Source of the DNA: Pelagibacterium sp. 26DY04
GTDB lineage: Bacteria; Pseudomonadota; Alphaproteobacteria; Rhizobiales; Devosiaceae
Length of the DNA: 64,000 nt
Direction of reading: 5' to 3'
Assembly (NCBI RefSeq): GCF_031202305.1
Contig: NZ_CP101731.1
Coordinates: 1-64,000 of the forward strand
Shown here: piece by piece, positions 2,460 to 29,152 of the stretch
How the letters are laid out: each line of letters begins with the position of its first letter
How positions within the stretch are numbered: position 1 is the stretch's first letter
Program-made: the position numbers and the translations under genes
The notes under the pieces: model-generated
Seen by the model: only the letters and a program-made list of their open reading frames with translations
Told to the model about the DNA's origin: nothing
Databases searched by the model: none

Positions 2460-3119
2460 ATGACCACGCGCATAACCACAGTGGCCTTTCTGGGCATCGA
2501 GGCGGTGCCGGTGGATGTGCAGGTGCAGGTTTCGCCGGGCATGCCGAAATTCAATATCGTCGGCCTGCCCGACAAGGCGGTGGGGGAAAGCCGCGAGCGG
2601 GTGCGCGCGGCGCTCATTGCTTCGGGCCTGGCGCTGCCGGCCAAGCACATCACCGTCAATCTTGCCCCCGCCGACCTGCCCAAGGAAGGCAGCCATTACG
2701 ATCTTCCCATCGCGCTGGGGCTGATGGCGGCCATGGGCGCCATTCCCGGCGACATGCTGGAAAAATTCTTGGTGCTGGGTGAATTGGCGCTTGATGGCCG
2801 CGTCTCCCCCGTCACCGGCATTCTTCCCGCTGCGATCGCCGCCAACGCCCGAGATTTGGGCATCATATGCCCCGCCGCCTGCGGCGCGGAAGCGGCCTGG
2901 GCCGGCGAAGAGATCGAGATCGTCGCCGTGGATACGCTTTTCGCGCTCGTCAATCATCTGGCCGGCCGCCAAATCGCCGCCCGCCCGCAACCGGTCCGCG
3001 CGCTTCCCAATGCCGGCGGGCCGGACCTTGCCGATTTGCGCGGGCAGGAGGTGGCGCGCCGGGCGCTCGAGGTCGCGGCGGCTGGCGGGCACAATTTTCT
3101 GTGTGCGTGTAACGTTTGA
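2460..3119 (+). pseudogene. yifB: yifB/comM Mg-chelatase-like AAA+ ATPase, 5' fragment split by insertion
   Basis: Start ATG 2460. The first 213 codons encode the complete N-terminal domain of YifB/ComM (VDVQVQVSPGMPKFNIVGLP, then VGESRERVRAAL, then INLAP-type NLAPADLPKEG). The frame enters foreign DNA inside the Leu codon at 3099-3101, directly before the Walker A loop, and stops six residues later at 3119. The rest of the gene is at 28273-29152. ComM is a branch-migration helicase needed for integrating DNA taken up by transformation. The split separates the N-terminal domain from the intact AAA+ module. As read the gene is interrupted, but precise excision would restore it. Confidence 0.92.
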
Positions 3120-3120
3120 A
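3081..3120. repeat. attL of the serine-recombinase island
   Basis: yifB sequence on the left, core CT at 3099-3100, then the attP half-site GTGTGCGTGTAACGTTTGAA at 3101-3120. The arm is the inverted partner of the arm at 26124-26142. Confidence 0.82.
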
Positions 3121-3142
3121 TATGCCTGCACCGGCCCGTCCG

Positions 3143-3171
3143 AAACGTAACATGCACATTTGTGTGCATGT
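3143..3171. promoter_or_regulatory. Second attP-like palindrome in front of the recombinase gene
   Basis: ACATGCAC (3150-3157), a six-base spacer ATTTGT, and GTGCATGT (3164-3171) repeat the 8-6-8 layout of the rebuilt attP (ACATGCAC, GACTGT, GTGCGTGT), but with central TT instead of CT. The upstream flank AAACGTAACATGCAC matches A's right arm AAACGTTACATGCAC at 14 of 15 positions. It lies about 50 bases before the recombinase start, so it could be an accessory binding site, an autoregulatory operator, or a decoy site. Confidence 0.65.
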
Positions 3172-3223
3172 AGCGCAGCAGATAATGGCTGATTGTTAAC
3201 CGGGACGGCTTTATCGTCTTGGA

Positions 3224-5041
3224 ATGAAAGCAGTTATCTACGCCCGCTGGTCATCGCTGGAGCAAGGCAAAGGCTCGTCGCTGGAAAGGCAGATGGACCT
3301 TTGCGAGCAGTTTTGTGCGGAACAAGGATGGGAAGTCATTGATCGTCTGCGAGACGAGGGAAAGAGCGCCTATACTGGTGCGAACCTTCATGAAGGGCAG
3401 CTAGCCAAGTTTACCCAGCGGGTCGAACAGCGGCTGTTGCGCGATGATACAGTGCTAGTCGTCGAGCAACTGGATCGCATTTCGCGTTTGCCACCGGGAC
3501 AGGTGATCGCGTGGATACAGAAAGTCATTGGTCACGGCCTTACGATTGCGACGGCGAACGACAAACTTGTTCTCGACAGCCGCAAGCTCGAAGTCGATCC
3601 AATCGGCATCGTCAGCACGGTATTCAATGCGTTCCGGGCCTTTCAAGAAAGCAAGCACAAGAGCGATCGTATCGCAGAAAGCTGGCGTATCCGCCGAAAA
3701 GCTGCGGAAAGTGGTGGGAAGCCGATTACCAGCGTTAGCCCCGCATGGCTGACTTTGGATCGCGAGACGGGGGTGTTCCATGAAATTCCGGAGCGTGTCG
3801 AGATCGTGAGGCGTATCTTCCGGGAATATGACGAAGGGTTTGGAAAGCGAAAGATCGCCTCACGGCTCAATGCAGAAGGCATCGCGCCATGGGGTAGAGG
3901 TGACAGCAAAGGTGACGGCTGGCATCCCAGTTACGTGCAGAAAATCCTCTCCAACACCGCCGTTCTTGGGGAGTATCAGCCCCACACCAGACCGCGTGGT
4001 GGAAAACGAGAGCCTTCTGGCGATCCCATTCCGAACTACTTCCCGGCGATCATCGATGAGGTTTCATTTGCGCGTGCCAACAGCGGGCGCAAACGCCTGC
4101 CTGGTGGAGCCTCTAAGGGCAATCTGTCCAACTTGTTCAGCGGCCTCACGCGATGTGCTGTCTGTGGCGGCAAGATGACCTACGTGAAAAAGCAGAGTGC
4201 CGGGGCCAAGAGGAAGAACCGGACTGGTGATTACACGTGGTCCGTTAGCGATGACCAAAGCTATCTGGTCTGCGGACGCGCGATCAGGCATTTAGAGTGC
4301 GGCAATCGAAACCACTTCAACTACCAGAAGGTTGAGGCGGGAGTAGTGGAGACCGTGAACCACCTCGTGCTTGATGACGAGCAGTTTGAACGGCCCGACG
4401 AGGCTTTGGAGGTCGAGCAAGAGCTGGTAGCGCTGGAACGCCAATTGGGGAGCCGGAAGGCGAAGTCGCAACGGCTGTTGGAGCTTTATAGCGAGACCAA
4501 CAATGCCGACGCCAAGCGAATGTGGCTTGAAACGGAAAGCAGTATTGCCGAACACGAGCAGCGACTAGCCGAACTGCGTGAACAGTTTCTCACGGCCAAA
4601 GGCGCTGTTTCGCCGGGCGAACATGTCCGTCGCATCAGAAAGTTTGTCGCCCAGATCAACGATGCGGATACCGATACTCGGCTCGATGCTCGACGTAAAA
4701 CGATGGCCGCGATGAACGCGGTTATCGACTTCATCAGCTTCGACGCGAACCGTAAAGCAACCGTGGTGTTTATGGGGGGCGCTCACAACATCAAGCTATC
4801 TGACAAGGGCGCTGTCGAGCAGGAATTTAGCTTCTTGGTCGAGCTTTCCGAGGGCGACAAGACAGTGACCTTGGACGATGGAATCGAGCTGGTTATCCCG
4901 GTTAAATCCCTTCGAGACGGCCTCGCTGGCGATGACCCTGTTCGACAGTCGAAACTCGACAAGTTGGTTGGCCGTGACGAGCGCTATCGTGTCGGCGTGG
5001 CGGAAATTGAAGCCGAAGACCAGAAGGCCAAAGGCGGCTAA
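3224..5041 (+). CDS. Large serine recombinase (integrase of element A)
   Basis: A 605-residue recombinase. The catalytic resolvase domain starts at once (VIYARWSS; nucleophile Ser at about residue 10, Arg8), with LERQMDLCEQFC and LVVEQLDRISR following. A recombinase domain covers roughly residues 180-300, then a Cys zinc ribbon (CAVCGG near 310, later LVCGR and LECGN), then a long helical coiled-coil region around 385-460. This is the full domain order of large serine integrases, which join attP and attB at a dinucleotide core. The gene sits 123 bases from the attL core, as is usual. The ribosome-binding site is weak. No recombination directionality factor could be identified, though small neighbouring genes are candidates. 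Confidence 0.95.
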   Translation: MKAVIYARWSSLEQGKGSSLERQMDLCEQFCAEQGWEVIDRLRDEGKSAYTGANLHEGQLAKFTQRVEQRLLRDDTVLVVEQLDRISRLPPGQVIAWIQKVIGHGLTIATANDKLVLDSRKLEVDPIGIVSTVFNAFRAFQESKHKSDRIAESWRIRRKAAESGGKPITSVSPAWLTLDRETGVFHEIPERVEIVRRIFREYDEGFGKRKIASRLNAEGIAPWGRGDSKGDGWHPSYVQKILSNTAVLGEYQPHTRPRGGKREPSGDPIPNYFPAIIDEVSFARANSGRKRLPGGASKGNLSNLFSGLTRCAVCGGKMTYVKKQSAGAKRKNRTGDYTWSVSDDQSYLVCGRAIRHLECGNRNHFNYQKVEAGVVETVNHLVLDDEQFERPDEALEVEQELVALERQLGSRKAKSQRLLELYSETNNADAKRMWLETESSIAEHEQRLAELREQFLTAKGAVSPGEHVRRIRKFVAQINDADTDTRLDARRKTMAAMNAVIDFISFDANRKATVVFMGGAHNIKLSDKGAVEQEFSFLVELSEGDKTVTLDDGIELVIPVKSLRDGLAGDDPVRQSKLDKLVGRDERYRVGVAEIEAEDQKAKGG

Positions 5042-5106
5042 TCTTAGGTCGCTCTTTTGGATGGAGGCTGTAGGCCGAGTGGGAACCAATCAACTCGGAG
5101 AACAGC

Positions 5107-5553
5107 ATGAGCATCCTGAAGACCCTGAAACTGACCTCGGCTCAGCCCGCTCGAACGAGCAATGATCCCGTAGAGCGCGCCCGCAATAAGGTGATTGCAG
5201 CACTGGCCGAGCAGAAGGCCATGGCCGAGGCCAAAATCGCCGGACAGCACTATGCACCGACACATTTGGTGTGGCGCAAGAATGAAGCCGGGAAACGTGT
5301 GCAGGTAGAGACCCCGAAACGCCTCCGCGCTGGCTGGTTCACCGACGCCAGCGGTCAGACTTTCTTTGCATTGCGCTATGCTGCCAAGCCCATCGAGTTC
5401 GCAAAGGACAAGAACGCGATTGCTGTGGGCGAGCTATCGGCGTTGCCTGCAATTATCGACACGCTGACCGAGGCTGTCCGCGCTGGTGAACTCGATGAGC
5501 AGCTGGCCAAAGCTGCCGCTGAACGCGGACAAATTCTGCGCAAGGCTAGCTAA
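5107..5553 (+). CDS. Small cytoplasmic protein, DUF6641-like
   Basis: 148 residues, no signal or membrane segment. The arrangement SILKTLKL at the start, a charged helix, then YAPTHLVWRKNEAGKRVQVETPKR and GWFTDASGQTFFALRY resembles, from memory, the DUF6641 family, which is often found beside recombinases in proteobacterial islands. Function unknown. It follows the recombinase by 65 bases on the same strand, with GGAG before its ATG, and may share its transcript. A role as accessory or directionality factor is possible but unsupported. Confidence 0.6.
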   Translation: MSILKTLKLTSAQPARTSNDPVERARNKVIAALAEQKAMAEAKIAGQHYAPTHLVWRKNEAGKRVQVETPKRLRAGWFTDASGQTFFALRYAAKPIEFAKDKNAIAVGELSALPAIIDTLTEAVRAGELDEQLAKAAAERGQILRKAS

Positions 5554-5644
5554 AGTTGTCGCCGACATACATCGGAGTGCTGGGGGTGGCCGCAATGCTT
5601 CTCCCAGCACTTTTCGCGTTTCTGGCAGGCGGGGAAATGCGTCC

Positions 5645-5932
5645 ATGACGACCTATATGCCGCCGGGTTCGCCTGAGTATGAGCGGTTCGTTCGGTTCAA
5701 GCGGAACCTGCTCTATTGGGAAGCCAAGCGGGGGATCACACGTCAACAGCTTCTCGACCACATGGGCGTTGACGTGAACCACTTCGACCGCGCTTCCAAA
5801 ATGACCCGAGAACAAAAGATGGCGTACCTCGAAAAGATGGCTGCCTTTTTGGGCATTCCGTTATCGGCGTTGTTTGCGCCGCCACCACCAGATTACCGCT
5901 CGCCGCGTATCGATGGATGGCGTCGAGAATAG
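5645..5932 (+). CDS. Small HTH-like protein of the island
   Basis: 95 residues from ATG 5645. A short Pro-rich head (MPPGSPEYERF) is followed by a helical region (ITRQQLLDHMGVDVNHFDRASKMTREQKMAYLEKMAAFLGIPLSALF) with the length and spacing of a Cro/XRE-type helix-turn-helix domain, although position-specific motifs are weak. It may be a small regulator or an excision factor. The next gene overlaps its end by about 20 bases in another frame, suggesting an operon. Confidence 0.55.
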   Translation: MTTYMPPGSPEYERFVRFKRNLLYWEAKRGITRQQLLDHMGVDVNHFDRASKMTREQKMAYLEKMAAFLGIPLSALFAPPPPDYRSPRIDGWRRE

Positions 5933-6329: not shown

Positions 6330-6748
6330 GGCGGCACGGCTTGCCCGAAAGCCGCCAACCCCGCCGTTGGGCATCGTAGGGTATCAGCGAGCCACACAAC
6401 CGCATGCAGTTGCCCGTTTCCAGCTTGGCGGCTTCCGACCCCATTGAAGACGTTAAATGACTTATCGTGATGTTCAGAAACCTGCCGTTCGCAGGAGCGG
6501 CGCACGTAAAGTCGAATGTCATGCCGTTTGACTCCGGCCACCGGCTAAGCCAAGCGCCCGACTTCCATCAAGATGGAAATGGGGAGTCTTGGATAAAATG
6601 GTCGCTCATCGTTGTCTACTCGACTTCGTGCCGAACCCGGCTGCTCACGGGGCTCTCCGGAAATTCCCGCTAATAGAAGGAAACTGGTGGATGAACGGTG
6701 CCAGCGCACTATAGGTTGTGATTTGTTGCCCAGGGCAAGGGGGAATCT
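6330..6748. other. Gene-free stretch before the Gabija-like pair
   Basis: About 420 bases. A GGCGGC...GCCGCC hairpin lies just after the preceding stop and may terminate that transcript. The remainder should hold the promoter of the defence pair; I see no convincing boxes or RNA gene. Confidence 0.4.
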
Positions 6749-8716
6749 ATGAAGATTGAGCAGCTGACTATCCGCAACTTCCGATGCTTTGGGCCAGAGG
6801 GAGTCACGTTCACCTTCGAAGAAGCTGTTACGGCCTTCGTCGGCAACAACGGCTCCGGCAAGACGGCGATTTTCGCCGCCATCCAAAAAGCCTTCGGCAC
6901 ATCGGGCGCCCAACGGACGATCCGGAAATCCGACTTCCATGTGCCCAAGGACGACGAGGAGCTCGAGTCGGAAACCTTGATGGTCATCGACTGCTTACTC
7001 GGCTTCCCGGAGCTGGAAGAAGACGATGCGGATACGGACGCTATCCCCGAAGTCTTCAATCAGATGGCCACGAGCGGAGAAGATGAGCCGCTGAAAGTGC
7101 GTATGCGCCTCGAAGCGAAGTGGATCGACGATGGCACGCCCGAAGGAACGATAGAAGAGGCGTTCCGATGGGTGCGCGCAACGGACGACGATTTCGAATG
7201 GGACGAGTGCCAGGCGGTGCAAGCCGTCGAGCGAAACTACATTCAACTCATCTATGTCCCCGCCAACCGCAACGCAGCCGATCAGGTCACGAATCTACTC
7301 AAGGGACGTCTATGGCGCGCCGCGAAATGGTCTCATGAGATGATCGAGCAGGCAGAGACGTCGGCGGGCGCACTTCAAGACAAATTCGATACCGAAGATG
7401 TCACGGAATTTATTCTGGAACGCCTCGAAACCCGATGGTCGGAGGTCTATACGGGAGACACGGACACGACGCCGAAGCTCAGACTGGTCGAGACCAGGCT
7501 TGAAGAGCTCGTTCGGCGCGCGGAGTTTGTCTTCTTTCCGGACGAGGCCGGGCGGGAGCGCCGCCTAGAAGATCTCAGCGACGGACAACGCTCTCTCTTC
7601 CATATCGCACTGACTGCAGCGACACTTGAAATCGAACGCGATGCTCTTCAGGAGCCCACGGCGGACAGCGTGTTCGATCAGGAGAAACTCCGCCGAACTT
7701 ATCTGACCATCCTTGCGATCGAAGAGCCGGAAAACTCCCTCTCGCCGTTTTTTCTGTCCCGCATCATGCGCCAGGCACGCGACATCGGCGGCGCTGCCGA
7801 GGCGCAGGTGATTCTCTCCAGTCACAGTGCCAGCATTCTCAGCCGGGTAGAACCCGAAGAGGTGCGATACGCTCGCCTGGACACCGAGACCCGTGAGTCT
7901 TCGGTAAAGCTCCTTACCCTTCCGGAAGAAGGCACCGAAGCTCGCAAGTATGTGCGTTTGGCCGTGCGTGCTTATCCCGAGCTCTATTTCGCACGGTTCG
8001 TCGTGCTGGCTGAGGGCGAATCAGAAGCGATCGTGCTCCCCGCCATTGCTGAGGCGTCAGACTTCCCGCTCGATCGCTCATTCGTTCCGATCGTGCCTTT
8101 AGCAGGACGGTTCGTCGCTCACTTCTGGCGCCTCCTATCGGATATCGAAATCCCCTATGCCACCCTGCTTGACCTTGATGCCGGACGGCAGCATGGAGGG
8201 GCGAAGACCGTGCAGTACGTCGTTGAGCAGCTCGCCGTTATCGGCAACGACCTCAGCACCAACAAACTCGTTGTGGACGAGGAAATCGATCCGGATGCGA
8301 TTGACGAGATCGACGACCAAGAGCTCATTGACCAAGATCAGGACCATCCGTGGCTCAAGGCTCTGAGACGAGAAGGCGTGTTCTTCTCATCCCCGCTCGA
8401 CATCGATTTTTCGATGCTGCAGATGTTCCCCGACGTTTACCAGAAACCGAGACTGGGCGGCCGTGGCCCCAAAAAGAGTGCTAATGCGCTCGAGGGCAAG
8501 AAGAATGTCACGCTGAAGACGGAAGGCGATCCCGATCTCTACGACGACGAATGGGACGATAGCTTCATCTGGTATCCGTATCTATTCCTGAGCGAGAGCA
8601 AGCCCGAAGCGCACCTCCGCGCTTTGAGCGAAATCGAGCCGGAAGACCTCAAACAGGACGCTCCAGAAGAGCTGAAGAAGCTCATCGCTTACGTTAAGAG
8701 TAAAGTCATCCCATGA
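6749..8716 (+). CDS. gajA: OLD-family ATPase/TOPRIM nuclease, GajA-like (Gabija-type defence)
   Basis: 655 residues. An ABC-type ATPase with Walker A GNNGSGKT (about residues 32-39), signature LSDGQRS (about 275), Walker B ILAIEEPE (about 320) and a switch His in SSHS, followed by a TOPRIM nuclease domain: LAEGESEAIVLP (about 418-430) with the metal-binding Glu and LLDLDAGR (about 472) with the D-x-D pair. Class 2 OLD nucleases with this layout that precede a UvrD-like helicase are the GajA subunit of Gabija, an anti-phage system that nicks DNA when nucleotides are depleted. It overlaps the helicase gene by four bases (ATGA). It is longer than the typical GajA of about 580 residues, so the pair may be a divergent branch. 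Confidence 0.82.
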   Translation: MKIEQLTIRNFRCFGPEGVTFTFEEAVTAFVGNNGSGKTAIFAAIQKAFGTSGAQRTIRKSDFHVPKDDEELESETLMVIDCLLGFPELEEDDADTDAIPEVFNQMATSGEDEPLKVRMRLEAKWIDDGTPEGTIEEAFRWVRATDDDFEWDECQAVQAVERNYIQLIYVPANRNAADQVTNLLKGRLWRAAKWSHEMIEQAETSAGALQDKFDTEDVTEFILERLETRWSEVYTGDTDTTPKLRLVETRLEELVRRAEFVFFPDEAGRERRLEDLSDGQRSLFHIALTAATLEIERDALQEPTADSVFDQEKLRRTYLTILAIEEPENSLSPFFLSRIMRQARDIGGAAEAQVILSSHSASILSRVEPEEVRYARLDTETRESSVKLLTLPEEGTEARKYVRLAVRAYPELYFARFVVLAEGESEAIVLPAIAEASDFPLDRSFVPIVPLAGRFVAHFWRLLSDIEIPYATLLDLDAGRQHGGAKTVQYVVEQLAVIGNDLSTNKLVVDEEIDPDAIDEIDDQELIDQDQDHPWLKALRREGVFFSSPLDIDFSMLQMFPDVYQKPRLGGRGPKKSANALEGKKNVTLKTEGDPDLYDDEWDDSFIWYPYLFLSESKPEAHLRALSEIEPEDLKQDAPEELKKLIAYVKSKVIP

Positions 8717-10566
8717 GCCTCGTTCGTCCGGAAGACTGGGTGCCTCAAGGCATCGAAGAACTAGAAGACCGCGCCTGGGAGGCACTTCGGGAGACCGGTC
8801 GCAGTGTATGTGTCACGGCCGGAGCCGGTGCCGGCAAGACTGAGTTCCTTGCGCAAAAAGCGTCCTACCTCCTGCAGACCGGACTCTGTCCTGCGCCCAA
8901 ACGAATCCTCGCGATCAGCTTCAAACGCGACGCCGCAGAAACTCTTTCGGCTCGCGTGCGGAAACGGTGTCGAGAGGGACAAGCACGGCGGTTTGTGTCC
9001 CTGACATTCGATGCATTTGCCAAAGGGCTTGTAGATCAGTTTCGGATGGCAGTGCCGGCCCTGTACAGACCGCCGGCAAATTATGAGATCTCCTTTCCGA
9101 CTAACGACGCGTTGAACGACTTTCTGATGCGCGCCGGAATTCACAACATCAATGCTCAGCAACTCGCGCGCATTATCGCACGCGTCCGGATCGGCGACGC
9201 TGACCAAAGCGCACCAGCTAGCGTTCAGGCCGTATTCGACGAGTATTGGAGCGATCAGCTGCATGGGCGACCGACCGCTTATCTGACTTTTCCGATGATA
9301 AATCGACTCGGAGAGTATCTCGTACGCGCCAACAGCCGCATCCACACCGCGATCCGCATGACTTACCCCGTCATCTTCCTTGATGAGTTCCAGGACACGC
9401 AGCAAACTCAGTTCGAGCTGCTCACCTCCGCGTTCGACAAAGACCATAACACATTTACCGCCGTCGGAGACGACAAGCAGCGCATCATGGGCTGGGCGGG
9501 CGCGATGCCGAACGGCTTCGAGGTGTACACGCAGCAGTTCGATGCAAGATCTATATCGCTGCTTTTGAACTGGCGCTCGCATACCGATCTCGTGGCGATC
9601 CAGCATATCGTCGCACAAAGCATCGACCCCAATGTAGAGCATGCGGTCGCACGCGGCGAAAGGGCGGTCGATGGAGATGTTTGCGCGATCTGGGATTTCG
9701 GAAGCGAAGAAGAAGAGATCGAACACCTGGCAGACTGGATATCTCAGCAGGTCGATGACGGTATTCCGGCGCACGAACTGGCAGTCCTTGTGCGGAACCA
9801 CCCCGAACGTTTGGAGAAAGAGTTAGGTCCGGCCCTCGCCGAACTCGGCGTCCCTCTTCGAAACGTCGCGCGGAACGTCGGCTCAATCGCGATCCAGGAC
9901 TTGCTCGCTGAAGAGCTATCCGACATTCTCCTTCCGCTGCTGAGGCTCGGGACAGAAAAGCGAAGCCCCGAGGCATGGGCGTCGGCTCAAGAGCAGTTGC
10001 GAAGGCTGGAAGCGATATCTCTTGACGACGACCTCGGACTCCAGCGATCGGCGGCGCGTACCGAAGCGCTCGTAAAATCGATCAGGGCCTTCATTGCCTC
10101 GCACGATCCGGGTGCTGCCGAGGCGGTGGGCGCTGTCGCTCTCCTAATCGAGGAGATAGGTGAGGCCGCCATAAGGCGCGTGACACCATCATACACACGC
10201 AACGCCGATTTCGCTCGCGTGGTAGAAGGTTTCGAACTCCTGCTGTCCGAGTGCCTTGGCGACGCCGACAGCTGGAGCGAGGCCCTCGACCGCTTCGAGG
10301 GACGCAATCAGGTGCAGTTGATGACCATCCACAAGAGCAAGGGGATGGAGTTCCATACGATCGTCTTCTTCGGCCTCGATAGTAACAGCTGGTGGAGCCT
10401 AACTCCTGGCAAGCCGGAGGAGATGAACTCTTTCTTCGTGGCGCTCACGCGCGCAAAACAGCGTGCGTTCTTCACGAACTGCAGCGATCGCGGCGGCAGG
10501 ATTGCCTGGCTGGAAAATCTGCTCGGTGCACACGTGCCTCGCATCGCGAGCGAGGATATCGCCTAG
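8713..10566 (+). CDS. gajB: UvrD/Rep-like superfamily 1 helicase, GajB-like (Gabija-type defence)
   Basis: 617 residues with the superfamily 1A helicase motifs in order: Walker A TAGAGAGKTE (about 36-44), Ia ILAISFKRDAAETL, II VIFLDEFQDTQQTQ, III AVGDDKQRIMGWAGA, IV LLLNWRSH, V LMTIHKSKGMEFHTIVF, VI FFVALTRAKQRAFF. In Gabija, GajB binds GajA and contributes nucleotide hydrolysis or DNA-terminus sensing. Its start overlaps the gajA-like stop, implying translational coupling. It is about 120 residues longer than the commonly described GajB, mostly in the central region. A DNA-repair role is possible in principle, but the pairing and mobile setting favour defence. Confidence 0.82.
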   Translation: MSLVRPEDWVPQGIEELEDRAWEALRETGRSVCVTAGAGAGKTEFLAQKASYLLQTGLCPAPKRILAISFKRDAAETLSARVRKRCREGQARRFVSLTFDAFAKGLVDQFRMAVPALYRPPANYEISFPTNDALNDFLMRAGIHNINAQQLARIIARVRIGDADQSAPASVQAVFDEYWSDQLHGRPTAYLTFPMINRLGEYLVRANSRIHTAIRMTYPVIFLDEFQDTQQTQFELLTSAFDKDHNTFTAVGDDKQRIMGWAGAMPNGFEVYTQQFDARSISLLLNWRSHTDLVAIQHIVAQSIDPNVEHAVARGERAVDGDVCAIWDFGSEEEEIEHLADWISQQVDDGIPAHELAVLVRNHPERLEKELGPALAELGVPLRNVARNVGSIAIQDLLAEELSDILLPLLRLGTEKRSPEAWASAQEQLRRLEAISLDDDLGLQRSAARTEALVKSIRAFIASHDPGAAEAVGAVALLIEEIGEAAIRRVTPSYTRNADFARVVEGFELLLSECLGDADSWSEALDRFEGRNQVQLMTIHKSKGMEFHTIVFFGLDSNSWWSLTPGKPEEMNSFFVALTRAKQRAFFTNCSDRGGRIAWLENLLGAHVPRIASEDIA

Positions 10567-11262: not shown

Positions 11263-11266
11263 CCGG

Positions 11267-11516: not shown

Positions 11517-11906
11517 TTATCGTGGTTGGAGATCGCTTTCGCTGTCGGACCGTCGGTTAAACCGAGCAATTTCGCGGATCGCCATGAAGCAGTTGCCCTC
11601 GGCCAGCCAGCCCTCCACTTGACGCACCAGTCTGGCGGCATATTCAGATTGCGCCTCGACCTCCCGCGCCAGACCCCGATAGTTCACCATATGCTGGGCT
11701 GAATGGCCATGCAGGTAGATTTCCTGCAACAACAGGTGCAGCTTTTGCAGTGGCGTTTCTGCCATTTCGGGATCGATGGCCTCGCGATCCTTGAGGATGG
11801 GCTGTTCGCCATCGATGTAGACGGTGACCGTGGTGTCGGCCCGGATAAGCAGGGTGGACCTGCCGATATAGATCTTTTCGCCGGGCTTGATGGCCAGTTT
11901 GAGCAA
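11517..11906 (-). CDS. flbT: FlbT-like flagellin regulator
   Basis: 129 residues starting with TTG at 11906. The pattern LKLAIKPGEKIYI, then a short beta region, TPLQKLHLLLQEIYL, and a C-terminal helix VEGWLAEGNCFMAIREI matches FlbT, the alphaproteobacterial protein that binds the 5' leader of flagellin mRNA and controls its translation or decay. It lies 53 bases downstream of the flagellin gene in the same direction, so both are probably one transcript. It is shorter than the usual FlbT (about 140 residues) and divergent. Its presence with flagellin on a mobile element is unusual. Confidence 0.7.
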   Translation of the reverse strand: MLKLAIKPGEKIYIGRSTLLIRADTTVTVYIDGEQPILKDREAIDPEMAETPLQKLHLLLQEIYLHGHSAQHMVNYRGLAREVEAQSEYAARLVRQVEGWLAEGNCFMAIREIARFNRRSDSESDLQPR

Positions 11907-11912
11907 GGATCG

Positions 11913-11927
11913 TTCTTCTCAGAAGAA
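11913..11927. promoter_or_regulatory. 15-base palindrome in front of flbT-like gene
   Basis: TTCTTCT-C-AGAAGAA, perfect, seven bases upstream of the flbT-like start and within the flagellin-flbT transcript. A 12-base part (TTCTCAGAAGAA) recurs at 11481-11492, near the end of the second XRE gene. It could be an RNA hairpin or a regulator site. Confidence 0.45.
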
Positions 11928-11959
11928 GGGGTGACGCCGTAACGCCACCCCAGAAGTGT

Positions 11960-13258
11960 TTAGAACAGGCGCAACACGGCCTGATCGGCCTGCGAGGCCA
12001 TAGACAGTGCGGACGAGGAAAGCTGCTGGCGGGTTTGCAGGGCCAGCATGTTGGCGGCTTCCTCGTTCATGTCGGCCAGAGTGAGATTGGCAGCACCCGT
12101 TTGCAGCGTGTTGATAGTGGCCTTGGTGAAATCCTGCCGGGTCTGCACGATCGAGAGATTCGAGCCGAGGTTCGAAGCAATAGACCGCAGCGACACGAGG
12201 GCTTTGCCCAAGCCATCGGCTGCATTTTCAAGGTCGCCATCGCTCTGGAAGTCTATCTCGGCGGCCGCTGAGCCGCCCGCCAGAATGCCAAGGCTTTCGG
12301 CATCAAGCTTAGTGCCAGAAATGTTCAAAGACGCGGCGGCATCGCCGGATTTTTCGTTGAACGCGACCTTGAGTTTATCGCCATTCAACAAGTTGATGCC
12401 GTTGAACGAGGCGTCCTGTGCGAGCTTGCCGATCTGATCGCGGATTTCGTTGAACTGGGACACCAGCTTGGTGCGCACCTCGCTGGACACACCGGTCGAA
12501 GCAACACCGGCATCGGTGAGGGCCGTAGTGCCGTCATTGCCAGTGTTGACGTTCATAGCAGCAAAAGCCGGGGTAGTAGCGCTATCATCGACAACGGCTT
12601 CCAGCCTGAGGGTCTTGCTGTCATTGGCGGTGATCAGAAGCTTGCCCGCATCGTCGACAGAAGCTGTGGCCAGCCCGGAAGCGTTGATGGAGGCAACGAA
12701 TTCACGGACAGTCGTATCTTCCGTGACCTCAAAGGTGTGTCCGGTATCCCCAACGCCAATGTAGACTTGGCCTGTATTGCCCGTGGTGATTGCGCCCATC
12801 AGGCCAGCAATACCATCCGCCCCCGCCGTTGATGCCGTGGCAGTGCCTGCGATGGTCTTGTCGAGCGCGGTTTCGCGAACCGACTTGCCGGTGGCATCGC
12901 TCTCCGTAGCCGTAGCCAAGGACGCATTGAGTTGCGGCTTGGTCTTGGTGGCGGCATCGCCAAGCGCCTGACGGATCGTGGACTGAGCGCTTTCGACAAG
13001 CTTGGTGATCGCCTTGATGCCATTATCGGCTTCCTCGATGGTTTTGATGCCGTTCGACATGCTGTCCATGAGGTTATTGAGATCACCGGCCCGCGCATTG
13101 AGCGAGGCGGCAGTGAAGAAATTTGTCGGATTGTCGAGGGCCGAATTGACCCGGTTGCCGGTGGAAAGGCGCTCTTGCGTCTTGCCCATAAGATTGGCGG
13201 TGTTCTGGAGCGAAAGCAGGTTCGAGCGAACTGCTTTGGAAAGCGAGATCTCAGACAT
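11960..13258 (-). CDS. Flagellin (accessory copy on the island)
   Basis: 432 residues. The conserved N-terminal domain begins SEISLSKAVRSNLLSLQNTANLMGKTQERLSTGNRVNSALDNPTNFF and the conserved C-terminal domain ends NEEAANMLALQTRQQLSSSALSMASQADQAVLRLF; together they form the D0/D1 coiled-coil core of the filament and carry the export signal. The middle 200 residues are Thr/Ala/Gly-rich and variable, as expected for the exposed surface. No flagellar export, hook or motor genes are nearby, so it needs the host's own flagellum. The gene lies between XRE genes and is followed by an flbT-like gene, all within element A. Confidence 0.93.
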   Translation of the reverse strand: MSEISLSKAVRSNLLSLQNTANLMGKTQERLSTGNRVNSALDNPTNFFTAASLNARAGDLNNLMDSMSNGIKTIEEADNGIKAITKLVESAQSTIRQALGDAATKTKPQLNASLATATESDATGKSVRETALDKTIAGTATASTAGADGIAGLMGAITTGNTGQVYIGVGDTGHTFEVTEDTTVREFVASINASGLATASVDDAGKLLITANDSKTLRLEAVVDDSATTPAFAAMNVNTGNDGTTALTDAGVASTGVSSEVRTKLVSQFNEIRDQIGKLAQDASFNGINLLNGDKLKVAFNEKSGDAAASLNISGTKLDAESLGILAGGSAAAEIDFQSDGDLENAADGLGKALVSLRSIASNLGSNLSIVQTRQDFTKATINTLQTGAANLTLADMNEEAANMLALQTRQQLSSSALSMASQADQAVLRLF

Positions 13259-17564: not shown

Positions 17565-18137
17565 CTATAGCAGTTCGACCGCCGCCCGCATCATGTCATC
17601 GCGAACGTCGATATAGCGCTGGGTTGTCGTAAGGTTCCGGTGCCCGGCCAAAACCATAATCACCTTGGGGGAAACGCCTGAGTGCGCAAGCTGAGTGATG
17701 AACCAGCGGCGGCCCGAGTGAGACGAAGCCCCATCAAGGCCTGCCGAACGATAGAGTTGCCCCATCAATTGGCAGAGCGTGTTCGGGGAGAACGCGGTTC
17801 GCTTTTGGGTGAGCAGGAGCGGACGATCCCGATCTCCATGATTACTAATCATGGCCTCGCGGTAGCGCTCGATCTCTTTGCGCAGGCGTTCGCTCATGAA
17901 CACAACACGTTCATACCCACCCTTGGCGATGCCAGCGCGAACCCGAAGCTGTTCCCGAACATCGCCATTGGCCTCGAATACGTCCCGCATGATCAACCCA
18001 GCGATTTCTCCAACGCGCAAACCCGCTAGGTGCGATAGCATAAGCGCAAGGCGATTTCGGGCAGCATGCTTGCGCTGCGCCACCACAGCCAGCAGGCGTT
18101 TAAACTCGGGATCGGTGAGCACTCGGGCTTGTCGCAT
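17565..18137 (-). CDS. Short tyrosine recombinase (catalytic domain only)
   Basis: 190 residues from ATG 18137, with GAGG five bases upstream; a TTG at 18224 would add 29. The catalytic pattern is complete: Arg in GLRVGEIAGL, H-x-x-R in SSHSGRR, His/Arg in LAGHRNLTTTQ and the nucleophile Tyr in RYIDV. The N-terminal core-binding domain of full-length integrases is missing, giving the size of FimB/FimE-type recombinases. It might invert or excise local DNA. It does not match the island's att structure, which belongs to the serine recombinase. Confidence 0.85.
   Translation of the reverse strand: MRQARVLTDPEFKRLLAVVAQRKHAARNRLALMLSHLAGLRVGEIAGLIMRDVFEANGDVREQLRVRAGIAKGGYERVVFMSERLRKEIERYREAMISNHGDRDRPLLLTQKRTAFSPNTLCQLMGQLYRSAGLDGASSHSGRRWFITQLAHSGVSPKVIMVLAGHRNLTTTQRYIDVRDDMMRAAVELL
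17837..17853. repeat. 17-base palindrome, copy 2 (inside recombinase gene)
   Basis: Identical to 17524-17540. In the reading frame it encodes M-I-S-N-H-G between the first catalytic Arg region and the H-x-x-R box. Confidence 0.8.
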
Positions 18138-18503
18138 GAAAACCTCATGATAGGCATGGATCGGACGCCTTTCATGATGTTGCCGTTGACCCTGCTGAGC
18201 GACCAAAGAGTGGAAATCGCTCAAAACGCCAAGGATTGCGGGCGACTCAGCATTATGGGGAACCTAATTAAATACGCATTATGTGATGTTCGCTTGGTCG
18301 ACGCCTCCGATCAGTCCACCAACGACTTATACCGGACATTCTGGTTTCGACGCCATCTCGGCCATAGCGAGTACGTCCGCCTCTCCGCAAAAGCAGACAT
18401 CGTTCGATTAATCCTGATCGCCGCTACATCAACGGCATGGCTACGGGCGACAGGCTGCGCGCGAGCAAGGGTTGGGCAGCCGTGTAGGCTGACCTGCCGC
18501 CCT
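18138..18503. other. Gene-free stretch between recombinase and efflux operon
   Basis: About 370 bases, the probable promoter region of the recombinase and the 3' end of the efflux operon. By eye the DNA becomes more GC-rich on crossing it. No gene or clear signal is seen. Confidence 0.4.
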
Positions 18504-21836: not shown

Positions 21837-21869
21837 GACAATGGCATCCTTGATCCGATGCATACGTAC

Positions 21870-21909: not shown

Positions 21910-21932
21910 GGAAAGCATCGATCAGGAAGAGT

Positions 21933-22837: not shown

Positions 22838-23434
22838 TCACCGCTCCAATTCAATGATCCCTGGTTCGAGCTCAAAATATCCCGAAAGGGTGAGTTGAAC
22901 ATGAGCAGGGTCATCGAACGCGGAATTGGCGAAGTACCATCCATGAATGCCGTCGATCGGAGCCACCAGCGTTCCGTTGGCTGATGTGCCTTCTCCAGCG
23001 ACATAGTCCATGACTTCGATTGGTTCGCCTGTGCGGTCATCGACCGTATGACCGTGGAACTCGAAGATGAGCGGGCGATCGCTGGTCCAGCTATAGAGCA
23101 ATAGGTCCCCTTCGTTCATCGAAATCTTGTATTCGAGAGCGCCATAATTGACGGAAAACGGGTTCACTTCGATTTCAATGGTTTCGGTGCGGAATTCCCG
23201 CTCGCGCAGCGTCGCGATCTCCGGCGGAGCGGTGAAACGCGTCTCGACGACGATCTCTTGTGGAGCAGATATACGGGTCAGCCCCATGGCAGTCCCCAGG
23301 CCCGTAGGGTCGATTCCGTACTCGGCGGGCAATACGAACACGCCGGCTATGACAGCGGCGGCGATCGCGGCGCCTGCGATGGGCAGCGCGAAGCGGCGGG
23401 CGCGGGAGCGATTGCGGGGAGCAGGGTCTGTCAT
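22838..23434 (-). CDS. Membrane-anchored periplasmic protein of metal cluster
   Basis: 198 residues: basic start (RNRSRARR), one membrane anchor (FALPIAGAAIAAAVIAGVFVLP), then a soluble periplasmic domain rich in beta strands with YKISMNEGDLLLYSWTSDRPLIFEFHGH. Such 'transmembrane anchor' proteins often accompany HupE/UreJ-like genes in metal-resistance clusters. Its ATG overlaps the HupE/UreJ stop by four bases. Exact function unknown; metal handling is inferred from neighbours. Confidence 0.65.
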   Translation of the reverse strand: MTDPAPRNRSRARRFALPIAGAAIAAAVIAGVFVLPAEYGIDPTGLGTAMGLTRISAPQEIVVETRFTAPPEIATLREREFRTETIEIEVNPFSVNYGALEYKISMNEGDLLLYSWTSDRPLIFEFHGHTVDDRTGEPIEVMDYVAGEGTSANGTLVAPIDGIHGWYFANSAFDDPAHVQLTLSGYFELEPGIIELER

Positions 23435-24174
23435 GCGTTCATCTCCAAATAGAACCCGAATGCCTGATAGAAGAAGAGGACAAAACCGAGCATCACAAGA
23501 ACGATGTTGGCGGCGCGGGCGTGGCGCTCGAAGGATTTCGTTCCTCGCCAGGCATTCATGAGAATGAGGATAGCGGCCAGGGCGACGATCTGCCCGACTT
23601 CAACGCCCACATTGAACGCGAGCATATTGGGGACGAAGCCATCGGGCGACAATGCGATATCCTGAAGCTTGGTCGATAGCCCAAAGCCGTGAACCAGGCC
23701 AAAGCCGAATACTGCCATCTTCTGATTGGGCACAAAACCCAGCGTCGCTTCGAAAAAGCCTAAATTGTCGAGGGCTTTATAGACGACGGAGAGACCGATG
23801 ACGGCGTCGACCAGATAAGAGCTGATCGTGATCCCGCTCAGGACCCCGAACAGCAGCGTGATGGAATGGCCGAGGCTGAACAGGCTGACGAAGATCACCA
23901 CGTCCCTGAAGCGGGACAGGAAGAACACGACCCCGATCAGAAACAGCAGGTGGTCGTAACCGGTCACCATATGCTTGGCGCCGAGATAGAAATACGCCCC
24001 CAGATGCATGCCTTGGGCGCCTGCTAGAAATTCAGCGTCTCCGCCCGAAACGCCGTGGGCAAGCGCTCCGGGAATGATCGAAAGCGAAATCGGCAGGACA
24101 AGCAACAGGACGAAGGCCAGACGCAGGATTCGGTGGGCCGTAAAGCTCTCCCCGGTCGAAAAATTCATATCCAC
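23431..24174 (-). CDS. HupE/UreJ-family membrane protein
   Basis: 247 residues with an apparent signal/first helix ending ALAHG and about six membrane helices. Conserved His/Asp motifs in membrane segments (GAKHMVTGYDHLLFLIGV, SLFSLGHSITLL, FGFGLVHGFGLS) match the HupE/UreJ family, associated with nickel transport for hydrogenase or urease. No hydrogenase or urease genes are present here, so a role with the adjacent metal-efflux genes is likelier. It is translationally coupled to the anchored protein downstream. Confidence 0.82.
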   Translation of the reverse strand: MDMNFSTGESFTAHRILRLAFVLLLVLPISLSIIPGALAHGVSGGDAEFLAGAQGMHLGAYFYLGAKHMVTGYDHLLFLIGVVFFLSRFRDVVIFVSLFSLGHSITLLFGVLSGITISSYLVDAVIGLSVVYKALDNLGFFEATLGFVPNQKMAVFGFGLVHGFGLSTKLQDIALSPDGFVPNMLAFNVGVEVGQIVALAAILILMNAWRGTKSFERHARAANIVLVMLGFVLFFYQAFGFYLEMNA

Positions 24175-24286
24175 TCCGAGCAGAAGACTGTTTCAGGTGC
24201 CGATCATTGGAGTGGGGGAGGTCGATGTCCTGCACATTTCATACAAAACCCTGCACGGATGCCACTGGTTTGAACCGGCGACCCCG

Positions 24287-25606
24287 TTATTGCGCCGGCC
24301 AGGCGACATGCTCGGCGTCGATGACGTAGGCATGGGCGTGGCGGTAACCTGTTCCTGTGTGCTCGGCGCCGGCGAGATGGGGATGATGAGGATCAAGGTC
24401 CGTATGGGTGTGGGCAATGATTTCTTCATCGTTTCGGGGCCATAGGCGCCATGCGAGCGCCGCGCCCACGATCCCGATGGCGCCCATGGCGAGAAATGCC
24501 GCCGGCAGCCCGGCGGTCGCTCCCAGCCAGCCGACCAGCGGATAGGTCAGAAGCCAGCACGCATGCGAGAGCGCGAACTGGGCAGCAAACACGGCGGGAC
24601 GATCCTCCGGGTGGGCCGACTTGCGTAAGAGCCGGCCGGAGGGCGTAAGGGCGGCTGAATATACAGCGCCAACGAAAATCCAGAGCATGAGAAGCCCCGC
24701 AAATCCTTGGACCAGCGAACCCGCGATCATCAAGCCCGATGCCGTAGCCGCCGCCCAGAGCATGACCGGGCGATCGGGCATACGGTCGAGGAGCGTGGGG
24801 AGGGCGAGAGCGGTCAACATCGATCCACCACCGAATGCCGCCAAGGCTAGCGCCATCTCCGAATTGCCAAGGCCGAAGCGGCCCTGGACGAGGACGACGG
24901 TGTTGACGATCACCATCGCCCCGGCTGCTGCGGCCGCAAGATTGATGGCGAGCAGCCCACGAAGGCGCGGCGTTTTCAGATAGATGCGGATACCGCGTGT
25001 CGTTCGATCGTAGATGCCGCGCGGCGCGGTCGGCTTGGGACTGGGCAACCGAACCGAAAGCACCAGCAGGGCCGAAGCAAAGAAGCCAACAACGGTTCCG
25101 GCAAACAGGCCGTTGAACGAAATGACCATCAACAATGCCGCCGCCAGCAGCGGGCTGGCAACGCTCTCAAGGTCATAGGCAAGCCGCGAGAGCGACAGCG
25201 CGCGGGTATATTCACGTTCGTCGGGCAGAATGTCGGGGATCGTCGCCTGAAAGGTCGGGGTAAAGCCGGCCGAAGCCGATTGTAGGACGAAGATCAGCAC
25301 ATAGACCTGCCAGATCTCGGTCACGAATGGCAGAAGGACCGCCACAAGGCCGCGCATGACGTCGAGGGTCACCAACATCGCGCGGCGCGGAACGCGTTCT
25401 GCGAATGCCGAGGCGATCGGCGCTACGCCGACATAGGCGATCATCTTGATCGCAAGAGCCGTGCCCAAAACGACGCCCGCATTGTCGCCCGCCAGCTCGA
25501 ATGCGAGCAGGCCCAGGGCAACGGTAGCAAGCCCGGTGCCGATCAGGGCGATGATCTGGGCCGAAAACAGGTGGCGATAGGTGCGATTGGCCAGAATGGC
25601 GAACAT
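24287..25606 (-). CDS. MFS exporter with His-rich tail (NreB-like, Ni/Co resistance)
   Basis: 439 residues, about 12 membrane helices of the major facilitator type (MFAILANRTYRHLFSAQIIALIGTGLATVALGLLAFEL at the start). The last 35 residues form a His-rich cytoplasmic tail (HTHTDLDPHHPHLAGAEH and YRHAHAY), as described for nickel exporters of the NreB type. It starts nine bases after the metal-sensing repressor, so both are controlled by the operator at 25906-25925. Nickel or cobalt export is inferred from tail and context. Confidence 0.8.
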   Translation of the reverse strand: MFAILANRTYRHLFSAQIIALIGTGLATVALGLLAFELAGDNAGVVLGTALAIKMIAYVGVAPIASAFAERVPRRAMLVTLDVMRGLVAVLLPFVTEIWQVYVLIFVLQSASAGFTPTFQATIPDILPDEREYTRALSLSRLAYDLESVASPLLAAALLMVISFNGLFAGTVVGFFASALLVLSVRLPSPKPTAPRGIYDRTTRGIRIYLKTPRLRGLLAINLAAAAAGAMVIVNTVVLVQGRFGLGNSEMALALAAFGGGSMLTALALPTLLDRMPDRPVMLWAAATASGLMIAGSLVQGFAGLLMLWIFVGAVYSAALTPSGRLLRKSAHPEDRPAVFAAQFALSHACWLLTYPLVGWLGATAGLPAAFLAMGAIGIVGAALAWRLWPRNDEEIIAHTHTDLDPHHPHLAGAEHTGTGYRHAHAYVIDAEHVAWPAQ

Positions 25607-25615
25607 GGTCGAAGC

Positions 25616-25897
25616 TCAGAGATATTTGGCGATGGTGCGGAACTGGTCGATCTCCGACCGTTTGGTGGGGTCGAGCCCGCCTGTTGCATCGGCGAGGCAA
25701 TGATCGAGATGGTCATGGATCAGCGTCTTCTTGGCCTGGGCAATCGCCTTTTCGACAGCATGAAGCTGCTGTGCGATGTCCAAGCACGATCGTTCGGATT
25801 CGATCATCTCGATGACGGAACGGAGATGGCCGTCGGCGCGCTTGAGGCGTTTGACGATGGCGGGGTGAGATTTGTGCTTATCATCAATCGGTTGCAT
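25616..25897 (-). CDS. CsoR/RcnR-family metal-sensing repressor
   Basis: 93 residues, all-helical. The family pattern is clear: IVKRLKRADGHLRSVIEMIESERSCLDIAQQLHAVEKAIAQAKKTLIHDHLDHCL. Ligand positions are Cys38, His63 and Cys67, with the spacing (25 and 4) of the CsoR Cys-His-Cys site and of the last three ligands in nickel sensor InrS; extra His at 8, 11, 61 and 66 could complete a four-coordinate site. These proteins release their operator on binding Cu(I), Ni or Co. The NreB-like exporter next to it favours Ni/Co, but the ligands alone do not exclude Cu. Confidence 0.9.
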   Translation of the reverse strand: MQPIDDKHKSHPAIVKRLKRADGHLRSVIEMIESERSCLDIAQQLHAVEKAIAQAKKTLIHDHLDHCLADATGGLDPTKRSEIDQFRTIAKYL

Positions 25898-25905
25898 GGC
25901 TCACC

Positions 25906-25925
25906 ATAACCCCCCAGGGGGATAT
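25906..25925. promoter_or_regulatory. CsoR/RcnR-type operator
   Basis: ATAACCCCCCAGGGGGATAT: two G/C tracts around a central A, flanked by AT-rich ends, directly upstream of the repressor start. This is the form of operators used by the CsoR/RcnR/InrS family. Confidence 0.85.
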
Positions 25926-26550
25926 CGCAAGTGCCACAAGCAGGAGCGTGCCCGGGAGGCCGTGCTGTGCTTGGAAACGAATGGATGTTAAGACGGATAT
26001 AAGTCCGATTTTGCGGTTATCGACCAAGAAGCCGTCGTTCCGCAACCCACCCCTTTTTCGCCCTTCCCGGAGCAACAATGCGTGTTTGCAGTGAAACCCC
26101 ATAAAAGTGCCCGAACGCCGGCGATTCAAACGTTACATGCACGACTAATGCTGTGCCCTGACCAATGGAACGGTTGTGGCCCACCCAGGCGCAACGATTT
26201 GAATGGCTTAAGCCGGGCCGAGTTCCCGGCTAGGGCAGCTAACGACCCCAGTTCGGTCGTTCAGGCTGAACTGTAGAGCGCTTGAGACCCGCCGTTCGTT
26301 CAGCTCCTGAAGTTCGGCTCAAAACGGAGCCATCTCCAGCCCGTCCGCTGCCGGAGTCTGAGCGTCGAAAGTGGACATTGACATTCAGGGTATCTAGCCC
26401 GTCGAGACCTTTCCAAGAACAGCTCGGGCTGGTTCATCCGGAATTGGCAAGGGCGTGTGCCCAACACGCTTCGACCAACTGCGATGTGGAAAAATTCCGG
26501 GGCACCGTGGCGCCCCGATTGTCAGCAACTTGCCATCACTGTCTGGGAAA
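25926..26550. other. Gene-free stretch holding the right end of element A
   Basis: About 620 bases with no credible gene. It contains A's right attP arm and core (26123-26146) and the left end of unit B. No other signal was recognised. Confidence 0.5.
26123..26150. repeat. Internal att site, predicted right end of element A
   Basis: ATTCAAACGTTACATGCAC (26124-26142), GA, core CT (26145-26146), then AATG. The arm pairs with the left end at 18 of 19 positions, and TACATGCACGACTAATG (26134-26150) is repeated exactly at 28260-28276. Confidence 0.75.
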
Positions 26551-27849
26551 TCAAAGTTTCATCTTCTTGGTCAGTTGCACAGCCATATCAACGCGCTTTA
26601 TCTCGCGTCGAAGAGGCGCGCTGTCGGGATAAGCCGCCTGCAGAATGCTCTTGAGCGTCAACAGCAAGTCGATCACACCCTGTCGGGTAGCAGCTGCCTT
26701 TTCGAAAGGGGCGTCGCTGGCGGTTGCGCGGTAATAGACGTCGAAGAACTCGGGGCCTTCAAGCTCCTTGGGACCTATCTCCAAGCTCATCCAGTCTTCG
26801 AGATTGGAACGCAAGGTATTCAGTCGGGTGTATACGCCCCATGGCCGCTGACCGGATGACATGACCGCCTTGATGATACTTCCGGCTTCAATATGGCCCG
26901 CAACACCCAGCGCACCTTTGGGCCGCCGACGCCTCGTACCCATGCTGAAACTGTAAGGGACTGAGGTAGATGTTGCGGTTGGAAAAATGGTTCCCCGGGG
27001 CCGTGCTCTTCGCAGGTCTTGTGGCGTGTGCGCCTTGGGGCTGGTGAAGGTGTCCCAGGAATTTGAGGATTCACCGGACCAGTCGCTTTCCACCAGGGGT
27101 TTTGGCATCGCGTCAATCGTGGCCAACAGATGGTCGAGGTTGTAGCCGTTGCTCACGTCGCTCGCGACATAGAGGTCGCAGTTATATGGAAAGTACATGC
27201 CGGGCCACGTGCTCTTTTTGACGTCCCATCCATGCTTAGCCGCCCACTCAGCGCGTTCGACCGAATTGGGTGCAATTGAGTAGGGCTCGTCGACCAGGAT
27301 CATCTGCCCCGTCTTGATTTCAATCCATTCGGTTGGATGATCGCTGTACGGCAATTTGCCGATGGCCTCCTTGTAGGACTTCCATTTCCGTGGGCGAGGC
27401 TGGAGCCCTGTATGCTCCATGAACCGCAGCGAACGTTGTGCTTCGCAAAGCGACTTCCGCGCTTGCTCCTGGCTGTCTAACACCATGTCGCGGATAAAGT
27501 GATCGGCAGCAACCATTCGTAGGGCTTCAAACCCACGGACCCGCTTCAACTCGGCTTTTCCGCAGATATCCAAGATTTCTTTGGAGAGTTCGATACGCAG
27601 GGTCTCGCGGCCAACGTGGTACTTGCCGCCCCTGTCCCTCCAATATGCAGTGAGCAGAACATAGGGCCGATCCAGAACGCTCCCTCCCGAAGGAAGCGTC
27701 CGTTGGGCATGACGAAAATTTTCACAGTTGGCGGCTTTCGCGGCCAGATCCAACGCGGTGAAGTACTTTACTCCCCGCCTTCTGCGAATTTCGGATGCAA
27801 GACTTTTTACGCCGCTGAGCGTCGTAGGACGCACGTCATCGATCAACAT
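26551..27849 (-). CDS. Hypothetical protein of unit B (possibly DUF5623-like)
   Basis: 432 residues from ATG 27849, with AGGAGA six bases upstream. Soluble. The N-terminus (MLIDDVRPTTLSGVKSLASEIRRRRGVKYFTALDLAAKAANCENFRHAQRTLP) resembles, from memory, plasmid- and island-borne proteins carrying the DUF5623 label; the remainder has a Gly/Arg-rich basic segment near residue 300 (GTRRRRPKG) and a helical C-terminus. No catalytic motif is recognised. It is the only gene in the 2.1 kb unit, so it is either the cargo or the reason the unit is kept. Confidence 0.55.
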   Translation of the reverse strand: MLIDDVRPTTLSGVKSLASEIRRRRGVKYFTALDLAAKAANCENFRHAQRTLPSGGSVLDRPYVLLTAYWRDRGGKYHVGRETLRIELSKEILDICGKAELKRVRGFEALRMVAADHFIRDMVLDSQEQARKSLCEAQRSLRFMEHTGLQPRPRKWKSYKEAIGKLPYSDHPTEWIEIKTGQMILVDEPYSIAPNSVERAEWAAKHGWDVKKSTWPGMYFPYNCDLYVASDVSNGYNLDHLLATIDAMPKPLVESDWSGESSNSWDTFTSPKAHTPQDLRRARPRGTIFPTATSTSVPYSFSMGTRRRRPKGALGVAGHIEAGSIIKAVMSSGQRPWGVYTRLNTLRSNLEDWMSLEIGPKELEGPEFFDVYYRATASDAPFEKAAATRQGVIDLLLTLKSILQAAYPDSAPLRREIKRVDMAVQLTKKMKL

Positions 27850-28270
27850 AGCCAATCTCCTGGCTCGATCTCAGCGTCACTCGCCAACCACTTTGCGAGC
27901 CCGGATGGATGTTGTCGGGTTCGAGTAATTACAGCAGTGCTGCCAGCAGCTTCGGAACGGCGAGTGCCATGCTCATGCCCAGAGCCCTGCTAATTTAGCG
28001 CGAGTCGAATGCCGCTTCAACCGATGGTGTTGCTTTATTCCTAGACCGAGCGACAGAGATCGAACGGTAGCTTTAAATAAATTCGGGCTCACTTGAATGA
28101 CTACAGTGTGTGCCTTGGCGTTGGACAGGAGCGGCCAACTGAGTGTCCACTTTCCGAGACCGCCATTGAAAACCCGCCAGTCCGCTCTCCACCCCAAAGC
28201 CGCCAATCTCCGGGAAAACAGGATCGAAATGATGTGGTGGACTGGAGCATCGTTTAATGTACATGCACGA
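27850..28270. other. Gene-free stretch, right end of unit B
   Basis: About 420 bases. An open frame from 28097 runs into the yifB 3' half, but it has no ribosome-binding site and no known homology in its first 58 codons. The last bases are the right att half. Confidence 0.45.
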
Positions 28271-28290
28271 CTAATGATCGGGCCGCCCGG
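28251..28290. repeat. attR of the composite island
   Basis: CGTTTAATGTACATGCACGA, core CT (28271-28272), then yifB (AATGATCGGGCCGCCC). The 11 bases before CT equal those before the internal core at 26145; further out the two arms differ. Confidence 0.8.
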
Positions 28291-29152
28291 CGCGGGCAAA
28301 TCCATGCTCGCCCAGCGCCTGCCTTCCATCCTGCCGCCGCTCAACCCGCGTGAATTGCTCGATGTGTCGATGATCGCTTCGATCGCCGGGGAATTGAAGG
28401 GCGGGCAGATTTCCGACCGCCGTCCTTTCCGCGCTCCGCACCATTCGGCATCCATGGCCGCCTTGGTGGGCGGTGGCCTGCGCGTGCGGCCGGGCGAGGT
28501 GTCGTTGGCCCACAATGGCGTGCTGTTCCTCGACGAATTGCCCGAATTCCAGCCACAGGCTCTCGACAGCCTTCGCCAGCCGCTCGAATCGGGGGAAACG
28601 GTGATCGCGCGGGCCAATGCTCGCGTCACCTATCCGGCCCGTTTTCAGCTCGTCGCGGCGATGAACCCCTGCAAATGCGGCTTGGCCGGCATGCCCGGCC
28701 ACACCTGTCGACGCGGGGAAAAATGCGCCGCCGACTACCAGGGCCGCGTCTCGGGCCCGTTCCTCGACCGCATCGACATCCGGATCGATGTCCCTGCCGT
28801 TACCGCGTCCGATATGATCGCCGCCCAGCCGGGCGAGCCCAGCGCCACCGTCGCCGAACGCGTCGCCCGGGCGCGCAAAGTCCAGCGCGAGCGTTTTGCG
28901 GCGCTCGATCTGGCCGGCGTTCACACCAATTCGGCCGCGCCCTCAAGTGCCATCGAACAGATCGTCGCCCCGGACGGCGAAAGCCGCGATCTGCTCTTGA
29001 AAGCCGCCGAAACCTTCCAGCTCTCGGCCCGCGCCTATCATCGGGTGCTCAAGGTCGCCCTCACCCTGGCCGACCTCGCCGGCAGCGCCAAGGTGGCCCG
29101 TCCCCATATCGCCGAAGCGCTGAGCTATCGCATCAATATGGCGGGTGCGTGA
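28273..29152 (+). pseudogene. yifB: yifB/comM 3' fragment (complete AAA+ module)
   Basis: Resumes at the Walker A loop (MIGPPGAGKSMLAQRLPSILPPL) and continues with the Mg-chelatase features GGQISDRRPFRAPHHSASMAALVGGG, Walker B GVLFLDELPEF, a Cys-rich segment (MNPCKCGLAGMPGHTCRRGEKC) and the C-terminal helical domain. All catalytic residues are on this side of the insertion. The frame is open upstream to 28097, so a chimeric or ATG 28274-initiated product could be made, but without the N-terminal domain. Confidence 0.92.

Follow-up and report, generated by a model that had tools for sequence, protein, structure and literature searches.

Can a mobile element that is tied to one codon of a conserved host gene keep its access to hosts that spell this codon differently? 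The question is raised by a stretch of 64,000 nucleotides from Pelagibacterium sp. 26DY04 (contig NZ_CP101731.1, positions 1 to 64,000; here called the window, at its full length), in which comM (yifB) is split at leucine codon 214 by inserted DNA that carries a large serine recombinase gene. Our results suggest, with fair probability, that some serine-recombinase elements hold two attachment sites (attP) whose different central dinucleotides match the synonymous C or T first base of one target leucine codon. By this means a single recombinase would keep hosts that differ silently, and the arrangement appears to have arisen some three to four times among elements at comM codon 214. The features on which the argument depends are as follows.

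2460..3101, forward strand: N-terminal part of comM, codons 1-214 (from the translation and the join)
3099..3100, forward strand: crossover core CT at the left junction, nucleotides 1-2 of codon 214
3101-26146: serine-recombinase element (e1), 23,046 bp
3101..3120, forward strand: right arm of attP-a (core CT), now within the left junction
3140..3181, forward strand: spare, unrecombined attP-b, core TT at 3160-3161 (6.4 standard deviations, SD); the site used by the P. lacus relative
3224..5041, forward strand: large serine recombinase, 605 aa, with Resolvase, Recombinase and zinc ribbon domains
26125..26146, forward strand: left arm of attP-a plus core CT (26145-26146), the true right end of the serine-recombinase element
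26134-26150 and 28260-28276: 17-bp direct repeat TACATGCACGACTAATG bordering e2
26147..28272, forward strand: second segment (e2), 2,126 bp, with att-like borders
26551-27855, reverse strand: DUF5623 gene in e2
28271..29152, forward strand: C-terminal part of comM, codons 214-506, from Walker A onwards, with core CT at 28271-28272

The two comM parts belong to a single gene. Codon 214 starts at 3099 according to the translation, and the N-terminal frame continues into the island as far as a stop codon at 3117-3119. When the halves are joined at their common CT they give an open, in-frame ComM of 506 residues that reads through NFLMIGPPGAGKS, and the coordinates and frame of the split proposed in the initial annotation hold. 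Its statement that the break lies exactly before the Walker A loop is right to within two codons and not strictly exact, the core being at L214 and GPPGAGKS occupying residues 217-224. A second, intact yifB that might be the true orthologue was not found: in the organism's own genome (3,887,506 bases, one contig) a comM query returned nothing beyond the two halves at E <= 1e-15, and a ChlI-domain search gave two more places that were far weaker (4.2e-9 and 2.0e-7 versus 3.6e-42).

Within the genus, comM is split at codon 214 in four of 13 genomes (G000, G009, G010, taken to be P. lacus, and G011). Empty sites, which the annotation had proposed to seek in related genomes, do exist and include a near-identical pair from the same genus, one filled (G009, 26,588 bp) and one empty (G012). 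The halves from G009, joined at CT, differ from the intact gene of G012 by two mismatches in 1282 bases. An empty homologue that joining at CT could not form, which would have spoken against the proposed split, is thus not what G012 presents. The pair shows that insertion at codon 214 is precise. For this site, joined flanks equal the empty target in G009 and G012; the window itself has more distant empty relatives only. The G009 island (26.6 kb; L226 and L227) has no detectable relative of the recombinase and carries IS110-type transposases close to both ends.

The inserted DNA was initially read as one unit of 25 kb. Three CT cores in fact bound two units, a 23.0-kb serine-recombinase element and a 2.1-kb segment. 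Over 118 bases the right end of the window's element is 96.6% identical to that of a P. lacus element, and positions 26085-26146 match it at 62 of 62 bases; the two diverge directly after the CT at 26145-26146. In an attP, two imperfectly matching inverted arms flank a 2-bp core common to attL and attR, and such a site emerges when 26146 is abutted to 3101, with a dyad of 15 out of 18 positions (next best offset within 15 bases, seven). If 28272 is taken as the right end instead, the dyad falls to nine out of 18, equal to another offset. We place the right end at 26146 because identity to P. lacus stops there and the dyad is stronger, which rules out a single 25-kb element and leaves e2 as a separate segment before the C-terminal half. 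The ends of e2 themselves give four of 18 (nine at another offset), so no dyad. No DNA relative of e2 was present among the loci compared, except the window's own copy; its DUF5623 protein has 259 relatives at E <= 0.001.

Two attP dyads lie 61 bp apart in the window's element, one with core CT, which was used, and one with core TT, which is intact. The close relative in P. lacus is integrated by way of the TT site and retains the CT site. Since the two elements were integrated by opposite members, each member of the twin has evidently served for natural integration. In a comparison of the two elements, attP-a is conserved at 41 of 42 bases and attP-b at 39 of 42, but the 19-bp spacer at only eight.

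Further spare sites were sought in elements with both ends available (n = 21) by scanning 1.5 kb inward from both ends with arms taken from that same element, leaving the core unscored. Left out of this set were G302 (whose N-terminal contig stops short of codon 214), G170 and G331 (contig edges, recombinase degraded or unseen), the one-ended loci L021-L026, L033, L034, L044 and L289, and L019, a duplicate of L151. Five elements hold a spare attP, at 6.3-8.0 SD: the window (offset +61, core TT), P. lacus (-61, CT), G269 (-44, TT), G433 (-59, TT) and G368 (-67, TT). All five spares have the other member of the CT/TT pair as core, in the same orientation. In a control with shuffled arms, none of 4200 scans reached 6 SD (maximum 5.73 SD).

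The cores themselves point to the same two dinucleotides. The offset corresponding to nucleotides 1-2 of codon 214 gives the best dyad within 15 bases in 19 of the 21 elements; the exceptions are the window, where it ties when the end of e2 is used (15 versus seven with its own end), and G126, where it loses by seven to eight. Cores are CT on both sides in 14 elements and TT on both sides in three (P. lacus, G011 and G412), and every one of the 21 has T as its second core base, left and right. Codon 214 encodes leucine in all 42 distinct comM genes whose sequence is intact around this position (44 rows minus two repeats of G008; the set includes G008, with a frameshift downstream, as well as G401 and G583, which are disrupted near codon 32). 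Its spelling begins with C in 28 (CTG, CTC, CTT, CTA) and is TTG in 14. The annotation's view that so conserved a codon guarantees a target is consequently too simple. Both spellings occur within the genus, C-first in six and T-first in three of nine genes.

In Bxb1, orientation is said to depend on the central dinucleotide. The serine integrases that have been studied require complementary core dinucleotides, according to the available text of PMC4111918, and cores are exchangeable in large serine recombinases, according to that of PMC10083194. Because complementary cores are needed, silent variation at the core would partly close a target gene to an integrase, and the C/T variation at codon 214 poses a problem that twin attP sites appear to meet: given exchangeable cores, an element with both could enter CTN and TTG hosts alike.

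The account that we favour, and hold to be probable from these sequence comparisons, runs as follows. The large serine recombinase would join the element to comM at the first two nucleotides of codon Leu214, which would break the gene until excision. Matching core dinucleotides would be needed; hosts spell Leu214 as CTN or TTG, and two attP sites would let one recombinase enter either kind of host. The window insertion would have used CT and that of the P. lacus relative TT, and e2, with its att-like borders, would have come to sit between the element and the C-terminal half of comM. The CT/TT twin of a comM-214 element would thus serve both spellings of the codon.

Several observations weigh against this account. 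Sixteen of the 21 elements have no spare attP, their highest peak being 5.1 SD (G412, core AC). The independent origins are few, three or four, since the window and P. lacus belong to a single lineage and a supported clade unites G269 with G368. What the host codon was before insertion cannot be told independently of the core. Finally, in four elements (G094, G245, G794 and G366; loci L157, L162, L203 and L197/L251) the first base of the core is C on one side and T on the other. In these cases a mismatch may sometimes have been tolerated, or the base may have changed later, which lessens the need for twins and not their existence.

Other explanations of the second dyad were considered. It might be an operator or accessory binding site of the recombinase, used for instance in the control of its own promoter, with an incidental core. 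This would suit the window, G269 and G368, where, relative to the used site, the spare is found towards the recombinase gene. In P. lacus, however, the same site served for integration and the other member sits at the far end, and all five spares have CT or TT as core, although the core was not scored; we consider this explanation unlikely. An equally unlikely origin is that the twin is the relic of two tandem elements at comM, one of them lost except for its end. A tandem layout is indeed present in the window, where e1 and e2 both lie in comM, which holds three CT cores. Yet the twin is common to two species, in which it is integrated differently and in which the two sites are conserved but not the spacer, and similarly short spacings (44-67 bp) recur in other lineages.

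The idea put forward at the outset, that one 25-kb unit profits from the loss of comM through less transformation and less competing DNA, with halves that perhaps act as split proteins, seems to us the least probable. Other types of element also break comM in the order, and the available text of published work describes how mobile elements in Acinetobacter cause the loss of comM, with the blocking of competing DNA via lost transformation as an idea raised there (PMC11472951), and an enrichment of competence genes among recombinase targets (PMC10083194). Against this, the element ends at 26146 and not at 28272, and comM may be nothing more than conserved and dispensable. The ratios of nonsynonymous to synonymous substitution against G007 are 0.076 and 0.067 for the two comM halves, inside the range of intact pairs (0.006-0.131), so the values may reflect either a recent insertion or retention of the halves, which explain them equally well. 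There is no sign of split-protein function, and recency accounts for the ratios.

Relatives of the recombinase were sought with an alignment of 25 rows in samples of the order, family and class, which overlap. In the order they occur in 13 of 297 genomes (E <= 1e-30), in 11 of which the gene sits at comM split at codon 214, bearing out the proposal of a recombinase aimed at a conserved comM codon; G078 and G262 have intact comM. The family sample holds relatives in nine of 136 genomes at 1e-40, eight at codon 214 (in G368 the recombinase lies 1.7 kb inside its island) and one, G401, at about codon 32. In the class sample they appear in eight of 385 genomes at 1e-50, six at codon 214 (G000, G094, G433, G604, G794 and G795), one near codons 31-36 (G583) and one with comM intact (G482). 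Two other orders yielded no elements except in the centre genomes themselves (1/76 and 1/17). Plasmid and phage collections gave four records and one record at 1e-30, with distant recombinases, and viral contigs added one further one-ended codon-214 case (L289/L355, one contig). The recombinase gene starts near a junction, either beside the N-terminal half and in the direction of comM or beside the C-terminal half and in the opposite direction; both insertion orientations are intermixed across the recombinase tree, in which a single clade of codon-214 recombinases was not found.

The gene is also broken elsewhere. A comM match at 1e-40 is present in 279 of the 297 genomes of the order, and 20 genomes with odd matches were examined (G082, G192, G197 and G314, with two matches of which one is near full length, were left out). 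Breaks were located near codons 241-246 (G096, G112), 260 (G067), 270-283 (G143, G158, G188) and 303-318 (G195, G213). The gaps hold IS1595-type transposases in G112, G213 and G195 (loci L207, L208 and L209) and Tn7-like genes in G143 (L210). Related recombinases in viral contigs lie at about codons 33, 338 and 380 of comM; in L353, L357, L356, L358, L361, L365 and L367 they neighbour fragments of comM with one terminus near codon 338 or 380. In G368 (L255, L256, L257) comM is in three pieces (codons 1-216, 211-326 and 305-505), having been broken twice. The recombinase locus at about codon 32 in G401 (L199/L258) has long matching inverted ends and, by eye, an apparently palindromic AT core.

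The window's element also carries cargo genes.

6749..8716, forward strand: GajA of the Gabija defence system (E 3.6e-243)
8713..10566, forward strand: GajB of the Gabija defence system (E 9e-208)
11517..13258, reverse strand: FlbT-like and flagellin genes
17565..18224, reverse strand: short tyrosine recombinase, 219 aa
18504..21863, reverse strand: two ABC-2 membrane proteins and an HlyD-type protein
23431..25897, reverse strand: HupE/UreJ protein, MFS transporter and metal-sensitive repressor

A TetR-type regulator is also present. GajA and GajB stand side by side, as expected of Gabija, and are predicted to form a defence system. Defence cargo does not appear to be the rule: when ten cargo proteins were picked from six compact elements, one matched PADLOC at 1e-8 (AbiU). 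The 219-aa tyrosine recombinase is perhaps the remnant of another mobile unit. Outside the island, immediately after comM, is a HigB-like toxin gene (29195-29473), and the next small frame resembles its antitoxin by eye.

That serine recombinases favour comM is already known (PMC10083194, PMC9203015); the novelty lies in the attachment sites. Durrant et al. 2022 (PMC10083194), in the text available, assign 12.4% of predicted site-specific integrases to magnesium chelatase/ATP-dependent protease genes; like the window's element, these systems combine a serine recombinase with the same target gene family, whereas twin attP sites with different cores and a match to synonymous codons do not feature in that text. 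The Wolbachia phage sr1WO, compared by its description and not its sequence, is likewise alphaproteobacterial, with a serine recombinase that enters a magnesium chelatase gene and leaves gene parts on both sides; unlike the window's element it is a phage, and the available description includes no second attP with another core (PMC9203015). The AbaR/AbGRI islands also occupy comM, in Acinetobacter, where a tie to lower transformation has been published; as far as the available text goes, their targeting is ascribed to a Tn7-like element, unlike here (PMC11472951). The Tn7-like genes at comM in G143 accompany a break near codons 270-283, not 214. In the literature searched, mostly at the level of listings, we recognised no paper describing a natural twin attP.

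To the known comM hotspot our results add several more target codons, together with a filled and an empty site that form a precise pair. A natural two-site element, if confirmed, would show how mobile DNA holds its host range against synonymous drift. It would predict which hosts can be entered by each site, and would supply native two-core attP pairs for studies of specificity.

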